Positions 45,746-50,763 of a stretch of 64,000 nucleotides of DNA are shown here, piece after piece (the stretch's first letter is position 1; each line of letters starts with the position of its first letter). Below the pieces are notes generated by a model. It was given only the letters and a program-made list of their open reading frames with translations. It searched no databases and was not told the origin of the DNA. Where the stretch lies: positions 1,116,001 through 1,180,000 of the forward strand of contig NZ_CP047952.1 of the NCBI RefSeq assembly GCF_014279875.1, read 5' to 3'. The stretch is from Synechococcus sp. MEDNS5 (GTDB lineage Bacteria > Cyanobacteriota > Cyanobacteriia > PCC-6307 > Cyanobiaceae). The position numbers were made by a program, and so were the translations under genes.

Positions 45746-47704
45746 ATGCCCACCCTGATTGAGCAACCGGAACGGCTCGAACAGCGCCTCAAGGAGATTC
45801 CCACCGAACCCGGCTGTTATCTGATGCGGGACGGGGACGACCGCCTTCTCTACGTCGGTAAATCAAAGAGCCTGCGCAGTCGCGTGCGCAGCTATTTCCG
45901 CAGCAGACACGACCTGAGCCCGCGCATCCGCTTGATGGTGCGCCAGATCTGTGACATCGAATTCATCGTGACCGACAGTGAGGCCGAAGCTCTCGCTCTC
46001 GAGTCGAATCTGATCAAGAACCAGCAGCCTCACTTCAATGTGTTGCTCAAAGACGACAAGAAATATCCCTATCTCTGCATCACCTGGAGCGAAACATATC
46101 CGCGCATCTTCATCACCCGTCGTCGCCGCTTCCGTAGCCCACTCGATCGCTTCTATGGCCCTTACGTGGATGTGGGTCTGCTCAGGAGAACGCTCTTTCT
46201 CGTGAAGAGGGTCTTCCCGTTGCGGCAGCGACCCCGTCCATTGCATCCCGACAGAACCTGTCTCAACTTCAGCATCGGTCGTTGTCCAGGTGTCTGCCAG
46301 GAAAAGATCAGCTCTGAGGACTACCACCGAACGTTGCGCAAGGTCGCAATGGTGTTTCAGGGGCGTAGTGATGAGCTGCAGACGTTGCTGCACCAGCAGA
46401 TGGATCGTTACGCGGAACGGCTGGATTTTGAGGCTGCCGCAAAGATCAGAGATCAACTGCAGGGGCTGGACCAACTGACTGCTGACCAGAAGATGAGCCT
46501 GCCTGACTCCTCGGTGAGTCGTGATGTGATCGCCATGGCCGGGGATGAACGTTTGGCAGCAGTGCAACTGTTTCAGATGCGGGCTGGAAAGCTCGTGGGT
46601 CGTTTGGGCTATCTGGCGGACGCATCCAACCAACCGCCCGGACTAACGCTTCAAAAGGTGATCGAAGAGCACTACAGCCAGGTGGATTCCGTTGAAATCC
46701 CTCCGGAACTTCTAGTGCAGCATTTCCTCCCTCAGCAGACACTGATTGAGGAATGGCTCTCAGAACAACGGGAACGCAGGGTTCAAATTCACTGCCCAAA
46801 GCAACGTCAGAAAGCGGATCTGATCGAGCTGGTTCAGCGCAACGCCGACTATGAGTTGCAGCGCGCCAAACAAGGTCAGGAACAGCAGGCTCTGGCAACG
46901 GAGGATCTGGCCCAGCTCCTTGAGCTTCCAGTGCCACCGAGACGAATCGAGGGCTACGACATCAGTCACATTCAGGGGAGTGATGCCGTTGCATCCCAGG
47001 TTGTCTTCATTGATGGTCTTCCTGCTAAGCAGCATTACCGCAAATACAAGATTCGCAGCAGCAGCATCCGCGCTGGTCACAGCGATGACTTCATGGCCAT
47101 GGCGGAGATCATGCGCAGGCGTTTCCGGCGATGGGCTCGGGCCAAGAGAGAGGGTGTGGATGTGGGAGCACTGCGTCAGAAAGGCGGCAGCGCTTTGCAG
47201 ACCGATGGACTCAACGACTGGCCTGATGTGGTGATGATTGATGGAGGGAAAGGTCAGTTATCGGCGGTGATGGAGGCGTTAAGGGAACTGGATCTGCACG
47301 AGGACCTCACCATCTGCTCTCTGGCCAAACAACGGGAGGAGATTTTTCTGCCTGGGGAAAGCCAGCCGCTCGAGACTGATAGGGACCAATTGGGAGTCGC
47401 CCTGCTGCGCAGGCTCCGCGATGAAGCCCACCGTTTTGCCGTCAGCTTTCATCGTCAGAAGCGTGGGGAACGCATGAAACGGTCGCGCCTCTCGGATATC
47501 CCCGGGGTAGGACCGAAGCGGGTGAAAGACCTGCTCGCCCATTTCCATTCGATTGATGCCATTCAATTGGCTTCGGTCGAGACCCTTGCCAAGGCCCCCG
47601 GCGTGGGGATCGCTTTAGCGCGCGATATCCGCCGGTTCTTCCACCCCGAAGAGGACACAGAGCAGGATGGAGCGGTTCAAGTCTCGGAGCCGATCAGCCG
47701 ATGA
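45746..47704 (+). CDS. uvrC: Excinuclease ABC subunit C
   Basis: The dual-incision nuclease of nucleotide excision repair. The 652 residues have the N-terminal GIY-YIG domain ([11 protein letters not shown], then [18 protein letters not shown]), a UVR motif near 225-255, the RNase-H-like endonuclease with [18 protein letters not shown] and [13 protein letters not shown]. Tandem helix-hairpin-helix motifs follow ([16 protein letters not shown] and [14 protein letters not shown]). The start is ATG 45746. The stop overlaps the next small gene by 4 bp, and a photolyase-like gene follows, making a small DNA-repair block. Confidence 0.95.
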
Positions 47705-48003
47705 TCCGCGTTCTGCCGTTGATCCTCTGTCTGATCGGCATGGTTTCAGGCGCCTGGTTTCCCAATCCTGCTTACGCCTCACCAGGACTCTGTACGGGTC
47801 CTGTTTGCGCTGATGACATCACCAGAAGTGCAAAAAACCACTGGCAACTGGTGCTCAAATTGAATGATCAACAGGGACATCGTGAAAAGGTGGTGATGAA
47901 CTGCCTCGCAGGGCAGCTGAGCCCGAGCTCCGGCCCCGTGGATCGGGCCTATGCCACCGCCCTTGGCCGCAGGGCCTGTCGGTTGGCCGGTGAGGGCCGC
48001 TGA
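47701..48003 (+). CDS. Small exported Cys-containing protein of unknown function
   Basis: A 100-residue protein with a clear signal peptide ([20 protein letters not shown], cleavage probably after AYA). The mature part has four Cys: [21 protein letters not shown] and RRACRLAG. I do not recognise a family. The ATGA overlap with uvrC upstream and the 2-nt gap to the photolyase gene downstream suggest it is a genuine, co-translated gene and not a leftover frame. Whether it has anything to do with DNA repair is unknown; an exported protein would not normally act on DNA. The start is ATG 47701. Confidence 0.6.
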
Positions 48004-48005
48004 CA

Positions 48006-49493
48006 ATGGAGATCACCCTGGTATTCCCCCATCAGCTGTTTGCGGACCATCCGGCCATCAGCAAGGGGCGTCCCGTGGCCCTGATCGAGGACCCACTCCT
48101 CTTCGGCACGGATCCGCAATGGCCGATCCGAGTGCACAGGCAGCGCCTTCTGCTGCACAGGGCCTCAATGACGGTGTATGCGGAGACGTTGCGGGGTAAG
48201 GGTTACACCGTTTTCCATCGCCGCCATCACCAAGCGAGCACCACCGAAGATCACCTTCAAGCCCTGCTGGAATCTGGGTTCGTCAGCTACCACCTGGCTG
48301 ATCCGCTCGACCACCTGCTCGAGAAACGCTTGCGGCGGTTCGTGGACCGCACGGGGGGAGTACTGCAGATCCTGGACTCGCCGATGCTTCTCACTCCGGC
48401 TTCGATGGTTGAGGAGCACTTCGCCACCGGCCGCAAACCCTTTATGGCCAAGTTCTATGAGCATCAGCGCCGGCGGATGGGGTTGCTTCTCGACGGCGAC
48501 GGAGGACCGCTTGGGGGCCAATGGAGTTTCGATGCCGACAATCGCAAGAAGCTCCCAAAAGGGATCAGCGTTCCAGCCGAGCCCTTTCATGACAGTGGTG
48601 CCGAAGTCGAACAAGCTCGTCGAGAACTCGAGGCTGAGCACTGTCCTGGCATCGGCAGCTGGGAGCCCTTCGGTTACCCGATTCGGCATGAGGATGCGGA
48701 ACGATGGTTGCAGACGTTCCTTGACCATCGCTTCCGTGACTTTGGTGCTTATGAGGATGCGATCAGCACCCAGTACCGGGTGATGTGGCACAGCGTTCTC
48801 ACGCCGATGCTCAACGTGGGTCTGCTAACGCCACAACAGGTTCTTGACCGCACCCTCGAGCGTGCTGCGGACGGTGACATTCCTCTCAATTCTCTGGAGG
48901 GATTCATTCGTCAGATCGTCGGATGGCGGGAATTCATGGCCGTGATGTATCGCCGGCATGGTGTGGTCATGCGCAACAGCAATTTCTGGGAGTTTGAGGA
49001 CAGACCAATCCCTGACGCCTTCTACACCGGGACAACGGGACTTCCTCCGGTTGATGACGCCATCAGCCATGCCCTGAGCAGTGGCTACTGCCATCACATC
49101 GAACGGCTGATGCTGCTCGGCAACATCATGCTTCTCTGCGGCTTTCATCCCCAAAGGGTGTACCAGTGGTTCATGGAGCTGTTTGTCGACGCCTACGACT
49201 GGGTGATGGTTCCGAACGTCTTTGGCATGAGCCAGTTCGCTGACGGAGGGCTCTTCACCACCAAGCCCTACCTCTCAGGCTCGAACTATGTCCGCAAGAT
49301 GTCCGACTACAAAAAGGGTGGCTGGTGTGATGTCTGGGACGGTTTGTTCTGGAGTTTCATCAAACGGCACGAAGACTTCTTCCGAAAGCAGTACCGACTG
49401 GCGATGATGGCGAGGAATCTTGATCGCATGGATCCAGGCACGCTCCTGAATCACCAGCGTTGTGCGTCTGGGTTTCTTGACGGGCTGGTCTGA
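48006..49493 (+). CDS. Cryptochrome/photolyase-related protein (FeS-BCP family, cluster Cys apparently lost)
   Basis: A 495-residue protein of the deoxyribodipyrimidine photolyase-related family (COG3046; FeS-BCP/CryB/PhrB type). It has TLVFPHQLFADHPA, RKPFMAKFYEHQRRRMG, PLNSLEGFIRQIVGWREFM, YCHHIERLMLLGNIMLL and GMSQFADGGLFTTKPYLSGS. The region after KMSDYKKGGWCDVWDGLFW normally contains a CxxC pair of the [4Fe-4S] site; here only one Cys is left, so the cluster may be absent. It probably binds FAD and a ribolumazine-type antenna. The start is ATG 48006, 2 nt after the small exported gene. Confidence 0.85.
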   Translation: MEITLVFPHQLFADHPAISKGRPVALIEDPLLFGTDPQWPIRVHRQRLLLHRASMTVYAETLRGKGYTVFHRRHHQASTTEDHLQALLESGFVSYHLADPLDHLLEKRLRRFVDRTGGVLQILDSPMLLTPASMVEEHFATGRKPFMAKFYEHQRRRMGLLLDGDGGPLGGQWSFDADNRKKLPKGISVPAEPFHDSGAEVEQARRELEAEHCPGIGSWEPFGYPIRHEDAERWLQTFLDHRFRDFGAYEDAISTQYRVMWHSVLTPMLNVGLLTPQQVLDRTLERAADGDIPLNSLEGFIRQIVGWREFMAVMYRRHGVVMRNSNFWEFEDRPIPDAFYTGTTGLPPVDDAISHALSSGYCHHIERLMLLGNIMLLCGFHPQRVYQWFMELFVDAYDWVMVPNVFGMSQFADGGLFTTKPYLSGSNYVRKMSDYKKGGWCDVWDGLFWSFIKRHEDFFRKQYRLAMMARNLDRMDPGTLLNHQRCASGFLDGLV

Positions 49494-49529
49494 ACCCTGC
49501 TTATGGTCCCCTCAAGTCCTTCCCTGGCG

Positions 49530-50117
49530 ATGACGCTTCCTGCCGAGGCCTATCTCTGGTTCAAGACCCTCCACATCGTGGGTGTAGTGGTCTGGTTTGC
49601 AGGCCTCTTCTATCTTGTCCGTCTTTTCATCTATCACGTGGAGGCCGAGGAGCTGGCCCCTGACCTGAGTCTGGCCTTCAAAAACCAGTACGGGCTGATG
49701 GAAAAGCGACTGGCGAACATCATTACGACCCCCGGGATGATCGTGGCCGTGTCGATGGCCGTCGGATTGCTGGTCGCGCAACCGACATGGCTGCAACAGG
49801 GATGGATGCACACCAAGCTTGCTTTTGTAGCAGCTCTGCTTGTTTATCACTGGTTCTGCTACAGGCTGATGGGTCAACTACAGGCAGGTCACTGTCAGTG
49901 GAGTGGAAAGCAGTTGCGTGCTTTGAATGAACTGCCAACGCTGCTCCTGGTGATCGTGGTGATGCTGGTGGTCTTCAAATCTCAGTTCCCGACTAGTGCA
50001 GCCACCTGGTTCATCGTGGGGCTCGTGGTCTTCATGGCTGCTTCCATCCAGTTCTATGCCCGGTGGCGCCGGTTAAAAGCTGAATCCATCGCTGCGGAGT
50101 CCGGTCATGCCAGCTGA
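49530..50117 (+). CDS. hemJ: Protoporphyrinogen IX oxidase, HemJ type
   Basis: A membrane enzyme that oxidises protoporphyrinogen IX for heme and chlorophyll. The 195 residues have four predicted helices, with the conserved His and WF in LHIVGVVVWFAGLFYLV, then GLMEKRLANIITTPGM. The start is a judgement: ATG 49530 (MTLPAEAYLWFK) matches the family start; ATG 49503 adds nine residues. It overlaps the PHP gene by 11 bp. The tetrapyrrole link is known for the family; the neighbouring photolyase might share a light-stress context, which is inference. Confidence 0.92.
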   Translation: MTLPAEAYLWFKTLHIVGVVVWFAGLFYLVRLFIYHVEAEELAPDLSLAFKNQYGLMEKRLANIITTPGMIVAVSMAVGLLVAQPTWLQQGWMHTKLAFVAALLVYHWFCYRLMGQLQAGHCQWSGKQLRALNELPTLLLVIVVMLVVFKSQFPTSAATWFIVGLVVFMAASIQFYARWRRLKAESIAAESGHAS

Positions 50118-50763
50118 TCTGCACCCCCTTCGAGCGATTCTTGAGACAGTCGGTCCTGAGAGCTGCCCCAGTGAGCTCAATTTTCACTGCCACACCATCT
50201 GCAGTGATGGCAGCCTTCAACCGGAGGATCTGATCCAACAGGCCAGCAGCAATGGCCTGCGTCACCTCGCGGTCACAGATCACCATTCGACTGCTGCCTA
50301 CCTGCCCATGCAGACATGGCTGCGGGCGCAGCAGACCGATGGCCAATCAGTGCCAACACTCTGGTCTGGGATGGAAATCAGCTGCATTCTTCGTGGCTGT
50401 CTGGTTCATATGTTGGCCCTCGGTTTCGAACCGGGACATCCGACGTTGGCGGTCTACAACCGTGGAGATGCCGTTGTCGGAGAAGCACTGCGTGCTGACA
50501 GCGTGGTCAAGGCCATTCACGACGCTGGAGGTTTGGCCGTTCTCGCTCACCCTGCTCGTTACAGGTTGGGATTCCGTGAATTGATCGATGCCGCTGCCGA
50601 TCTGGGTATCGACGGTGGCGAAGCCTGGTACGACTACGACATGCAACCGCAGTGGCAGTGGACTCCCATGGTCTGTGAACAGATCGATGCTCAGTTGAAG
50701 AACCTTGGCCTTTTGCGTACGTGTGGAACCGACAGCCACGGAGTTGACCTGAGAGGTCGCTAA
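50107..50763 (+). CDS. PHP-domain metal-dependent phosphoesterase
   Basis: A 218-residue PHP-fold protein with LNFHCHTICSDGS (HxH), AVTDHHSTAAYL, a central VLAHPARYRLG and the C-terminal CGTDSHGVDLRG, the four metal-ligand motifs of the family. Related proteins hydrolyse 5'-nucleotides, oligoribonucleotides or 3',5'-bisphosphates, so the exact substrate is open. It starts with ATG 50107 inside the hemJ end (11-bp overlap). It ends 27 bp before the next gene. No signal peptide. Confidence 0.82.
   Translation: MPADLHPLRAILETVGPESCPSELNFHCHTICSDGSLQPEDLIQQASSNGLRHLAVTDHHSTAAYLPMQTWLRAQQTDGQSVPTLWSGMEISCILRGCLVHMLALGFEPGHPTLAVYNRGDAVVGEALRADSVVKAIHDAGGLAVLAHPARYRLGFRELIDAAADLGIDGGEAWYDYDMQPQWQWTPMVCEQIDAQLKNLGLLRTCGTDSHGVDLRGR

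Follow-up and report, generated by a model that had tools for sequence, protein, structure and literature searches.

Prokaryotic (6-4) photolyases carry a [4Fe-4S] cluster, held in PhrB by C350, C438, C441 and C454 (PMC3204975), that has no known function according to PMC12082625. PhrB mutants in the cluster ligands are described in PMC4619345 as insoluble or not expressed, and mutants therefore cannot easily answer the question of what the cluster does. A gene on the plus strand at positions 48006-49493 of the window, i.e., the whole 64,000-nucleotide stretch of Synechococcus sp. MEDNS5 DNA analyzed here, raises this question in another form: what is the role of a PhrB-type protein that lacks the cluster ligands, and how did its gene come to occupy its present place? 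A sequence-only reading of the gene had pointed to fold motifs of the PhrB/CryB family, to missing ligand cysteines, and to either a cluster-free (6-4)-type photolyase or a photoreceptor, and it had called for an alignment with PhrB and a structural model.

A PhrB-type fold without cluster ligands

The gene, of the phr2 type, starts with ATG and encodes a 495-amino acid protein that matches the Pfam families PF04244 (DPRP, E 2e-47) and FAD_binding_7 (E 8e-7). The solved structures related to it by sequence above the threshold are PhrB-type proteins only (E 3e-77 to 9e-65), namely 8ijy (S. elongatus), 4dja, 5kcm and 5lfa (PhrB), 9hnk and 9q8f (Caulobacter), 7ykn (V. cholerae) and 3zxs (CryB). 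Its AF2 model (pLDDT 91.8, pTM 0.92) finds its best fold match in PhrB 4dja, on which it superposes with Z 48.3 over 484 residues at 2.0 Å. Fold Z scores span 41.6-48.3 for PhrB-type structures, compared to at most 29.4 for CPD photolyases, and the closest overall fold is not that of the class I, II or III CPD photolyases. The FeS-BCP fold, a DPRP N-terminal domain joined to a helical FAD domain, is thus present, and the family assignment made from motifs is borne out by the domain matches, the sequence-related structures and the superposition alike. Four genomes of the genus to which MEDNS5 itself belongs (L119, L120, L121, L122) carry a 470-amino acid version of the photolyase that is about 25 residues shorter, 61-62% identical and a weaker DPRP match.

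None of the four ligand cysteines is kept at its PhrB position. In the alignment with PhrB, C350 is replaced by Pro348 (codon at 49047-49049, plus strand), C438 by Lys436 and C454 by Asp442, and C441 falls in a gap, which confirms that the ligands are absent and leaves the protein without the four cysteines that mark an FeS-BCP. The segment quoted in the sequence-only reading, KMSDYKKGGWCDVWDG, corresponds exactly to residues 431-446; it is indeed shortened and contains a single Cys, though the statement that two of the four ligands normally lie there has to be corrected, as PhrB has three (C438, C441 and C454). In their place stands the loop YKKGGWCDVWD (residues 435-445; 49308-49340, plus strand), which is 10 residues shorter than its PhrB counterpart; the AF2 model has a helix beginning at residue 439. 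The single Cys of the loop, C441, lines up with PhrB Ala453, which immediately precedes ligand C454, and this column holds another residue in 36 of the 121 cluster-free relatives described below. W440 and W444, in contrast, are invariant in all 121, with D445 kept in 118, and we infer that the two tryptophans fill the cluster site.

Homologues carry all four cysteines or none

Relatives came from 84,980 scanned species genomes, which yielded 80, and from the family and phylum of the source organism. All four cysteines are absent in 121 of the 193 aligned homologues and all four are present in the remaining 72, with no homologue carrying one, two or three; the 121:72 ratio is not a frequency, as sampling favored relatives of the MEDNS5 photolyase, and the four-Cys relatives from outside the cyanobacteria are PDB chains only. 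The place of C350 is taken by Pro in 119/121 cluster-free homologues and by Cys in 72/72 four-Cys homologues. Because the ligand-free state is common to 121 homologues, and because comparison with four marine Synechococcus orthologues gives dN/dS values of 0.06-0.11 (Nei-Gojobori; for the two more distant ones dS is close to saturation or beyond it), the absent ligands are neither a sequencing error nor decay; purifying selection on the gene is strong.

In a tree built without the cluster columns, and without a reliable root, the cluster-free and four-Cys sequences lie on the two sides of one branch with support 100. The MEDNS5 photolyase groups with cluster-free members from several phyla, which include Cyanobacteriota, Verrucomicrobiota, Bacteroidota, Balneolota, Planctomycetota, Ignavibacteriota, Nitrospirota, Pseudomonadota and Myxococcota, many of them represented by metagenome bins. 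Sequences from marine Synechococcus and reduced-genome picocyanobacteria form one clade (100/97) with Verrucomicrobiota as sister (99/94), and the remaining cluster-free genes of the same cyanobacterial family fall at the base of the cluster-free group. A single clade of all of the family's cluster-free genes is moderately rejected (AU p 0.0245, for a grouping named after the tree had been seen). The four-Cys genes of this family group with SePhrB and other cyanobacteria.

Conservation of the (6-4) active site

His364 (codon at 49095-49097, plus strand) is the counterpart of the essential PhrB His366, and is invariant in 193/193 homologues, as are Leu370, Met410, Tyr430 and Trp390 in PhrB numbering, which is used below for these positions. 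The H366N substitution abolishes (6-4) repair by PhrB (PMC4619345), and CPD photolyases have Asn in place of this catalytic His (PMC3204975, PMC4619345); the MEDNS5 protein does not have the CPD-type Asn. Mutagenesis of PhrB has established the importance of His366, Tyr424, Tyr430 and Trp390 (PMC4619345). The active-site His366 and the lesion-contact residues Tyr424 and Tyr430 are all retained in the MEDNS5 photolyase, Tyr424 being kept in 120/121 cluster-free homologues and missing in one of the 193. Gln306 and Asp179 are also invariant in 121/121 cluster-free homologues, and Asp254 is invariant like Asp179; Asp179 and Asp254 are the aspartate pair that Ma 2019 reportedly linked to Mg. The outer electron-transfer residue of PhrB, Trp342, is replaced by Tyr in the MEDNS5 protein and in 90/121 cluster-free members, though its loss is not tied to that of the cluster because many four-Cys cyanobacterial members are also without it. 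Cys362 (49089-49091, beside the catalytic His) and Cys378 (49137-49139) are typical of the cluster-free group.

The protein is therefore very probably a prokaryotic (6-4) photolyase without a cluster, and as such belongs to the known Phr2/PromaPL/subgroup M type. Between the two options left by the sequence-only reading, the first gains support from the missing ligands, from the retained catalytic and lesion-contact residues, which favor a photolyase, and from Phr2 of Synechococcus RS9916, a member of the same family by description, which lets E. coli survive UV in a light-dependent manner (PMC9426592); the second is disfavored. In the mechanism that we envisage, reduced FAD in the helical domain would absorb blue light, either directly or via an antenna pigment bound by the N-terminal domain. 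It would then pass an electron to the (6-4) photoproduct. His364 would donate a proton, and the electron would return to FAD. The C-terminal region, held by the cluster in PhrB, may be packed instead by the shorter loop, the two invariant Trp residues and the Pro at the first ligand position.

A proposed exchange of photolyases between uvrC and hemJ

The photolyase gene lies in a closely spaced run of plus-strand genes with short overlaps or gaps between them. Upstream are uvrC (45746-47704), an ORF named from its sequence and from an order that is kept in relatives, and a small ORF of 100 amino acids (47701-48003), which overlaps the end of uvrC, has no Pfam or NCBIfam match and is conserved beside the photolyase in relatives. 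Downstream are hemJ (protoporphyrinogen oxidase; 49503-50117; TIGR00701, E 4e-48, over the cut-off) and a PHP-domain gene (50107-50763; PF02811, E 1e-7), again in conserved order.

This order is found with the cluster-free gene in all readable marine Synechococcus orthologues, including that of WH7803. The same slot holds a four-Cys photolyase flanked by both neighbors in ten genomes of related genera (G106, G062, G054, G009, G064, G045, G037, G150, G115 and G092) and by one neighbor in four more (G024, G032, G023 and G072); the exception is G030, where the four-Cys gene lies outside the slot. Where the cluster-free gene lies elsewhere (genera g6, g45, g19, g35 and g48, as well as the reduced genomes g18 and g56), hemJ is directly preceded by uvrC, either alone or together with the small ORF; uvrC was not seen beside hemJ in the fetched stretch of G099, G084 and G051. 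In G035, the slot between uvrC and hemJ contains a relic (L217:1179-1406), a C-terminal photolyase fragment of 76 residues with the remainder of the gene gone, which is 74% identical to a four-Cys photolyase versus 37% to the best cluster-free one. The relic reads CCKGC...RALPF, with the fourth ligand Cys already changed to Leu, and the intact photolyase of this genome (L139) is cluster-free and lies outside the slot. Among the sampled genomes none carries both types intact.

These observations are most simply read as a slot first occupied by the four-Cys gene, which a transferred cluster-free gene then replaced. The marine Synechococcus lineage would have gained the cluster-free gene by transfer, and this gene would then have taken the place of the four-Cys gene between uvrC and hemJ. 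The exchange, the empty slots and the relic, together with the lack of any genome with both types, suggest that both forms do the same job. On this basis we regard it as reasonably likely that, within one cyanobacterial family, a transferred cluster-free homologue displaced the four-Cys photolyase in its slot (in other genera a copy elsewhere would have displaced it, leaving the slot empty or with a relic), the two never coexisting. The cluster would then be dispensable for the cellular role of the enzyme and would have been traded away, possibly together with an 8-HDF antenna.

Alternative functions

The authors of the marine Synechococcus study (Haney et al. 2022, mBio, PMC9426592) predicted CPD repair for cluster-free Phr2, and a CPD photolyase, or an enzyme that repairs both lesions with a PhrB fold of changed specificity, is one alternative: in the light, RS9916 Phr2 improved the survival of phr-deficient E. 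coli under UV-B by a factor of nearly ten, much like the predicted CPD photolyase Phr3, and UV-B damage is mostly CPD. The published argument, however, rests on the missing cluster only, and every residue on which (6-4) repair by PhrB depends is kept, including the His that stands in for the Asn of CPD photolyases. In the slot, moreover, the cluster-free gene takes the place of a four-Cys gene. Active-site conservation and the slot exchange together favor (6-4) repair over the published prediction, and we consider CPD activity unlikely.

A blue-light photoreceptor (cryptochrome) without repair activity would sit well with the regulatory functions of CryB, a related Rhodobacter protein (PMC9178010), and with the exchange of the outer electron-transfer Trp342 for Tyr, yet the light-dependent survival conferred by RS9916 Phr2 (PMC9426592), the retention of Tyr424, Tyr430 and His366 and the position of the gene adjoining uvrC, itself a repair gene, make this highly improbable. 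CryB itself is able to repair (6-4) lesions. It is scarcely credible that a cluster or another metal is still bound through other residues such as C362, C378 and C441. Cysteines do occur at these positions in 89/121, 116/121 and 85/121 cluster-free homologues, respectively, in columns that are mostly Ala in the four-Cys group, but more than a quarter of the cluster-free group has another residue at C362, and likewise at C441, C362 and C378 lie at opposite ends of helix 365-377 in the AF2 model, too distant for one cubane, and PromaPL is reported to be without a cluster (PMC9178010). We therefore rejected a cluster formed by these three cysteines, and retain the cluster-free (6-4) photolyase as the preferred assignment.

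Antenna

The column of PhrB Ile51, which lines the DMRL pocket of PhrB, holds His in 100/121 cluster-free homologues and in no four-Cys member. Ile51 is the residue mutated in 5kcm. The MEDNS5 genome has no CofH match, and its CofG match lies far below the cut-off; therefore it is probably unable to make 8-HDF, and in that case DMRL would be the expected antenna. Within the family, a strong CofH match is present in 23/34 genomes with a four-Cys photolyase versus 2/39 with a cluster-free one (one fragment counted; Fisher p 1e-8, relatedness ignored). Matches were scored by E-value, as the curated cut-off is passed by a single genome. The association hints that antenna pigment and photolyase type are linked, and suggests that cluster-free photolyases may use a different antenna.

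Relation to known photolyases

A cluster-free relative of PhrB is, as such, already known. Graf 2015 noted the joint absence of Tyr460 and the cluster cysteines in 7% of homologues (PMC4619345), and NAR 2022 defined a subgroup M without the cysteines and cited PromaPL as a (6-4) photolyase without the cluster (PMC9178010). Phr2 was found in all marine Synechococcus, mostly without the cluster cysteines (PMC9426592). The MEDNS5 protein has the PhrB-type fold without the four cysteines that distinguishes subgroup M, and it shares with Phr2 of marine Synechococcus and Cyanobium the PhrB-like N-terminal domain, the FAD domain and the absence of cluster cysteines seen in most of them, with no difference found from the description in PMC9426592; the WH7803 orthologue, of the Phr2 type, is 89% identical. 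PromaPL of Prochlorococcus marinus, compared by description, is likewise without ligands and belongs to the same phylogenetic group (PMC9178010), and the MEDNS5 protein shares 48-50% identity with reduced-genome relatives from the same family. With the FeS-BCPs PhrB (4dja), CryB (3zxs) and SePhrB (8ijy) the protein shares the full-length fold, His366, Tyr424, Tyr430 and Trp390, but at about 30% identity it differs in its missing ligands, the loop shorter by 10, and the changes Trp342 to Tyr and Ile51 to His.

The consulted parts of Graf 2015, NAR 2022 and mBio 2022 mention neither the slot exchange nor the G035 relic. Related cyanobacteria offer a natural pair of cluster-containing and cluster-free photolyases in the same slot, so that stability, photoreduction, antenna and repair can be compared directly; as the two forms apparently do the same job, the role of the cluster could be tested by swapping them.

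The MEDNS5 genome also contains, outside the window, a split photolyase with reversed domain order on the minus strand (G000 C1 at about 303 kb; L114:832-1260 and 1291-2220). It corresponds to phr4/phr5 of the mBio 2022 study; its two parts do not share a common reading frame, and the first part carries the Cys pairs YCSTC...TCPF.
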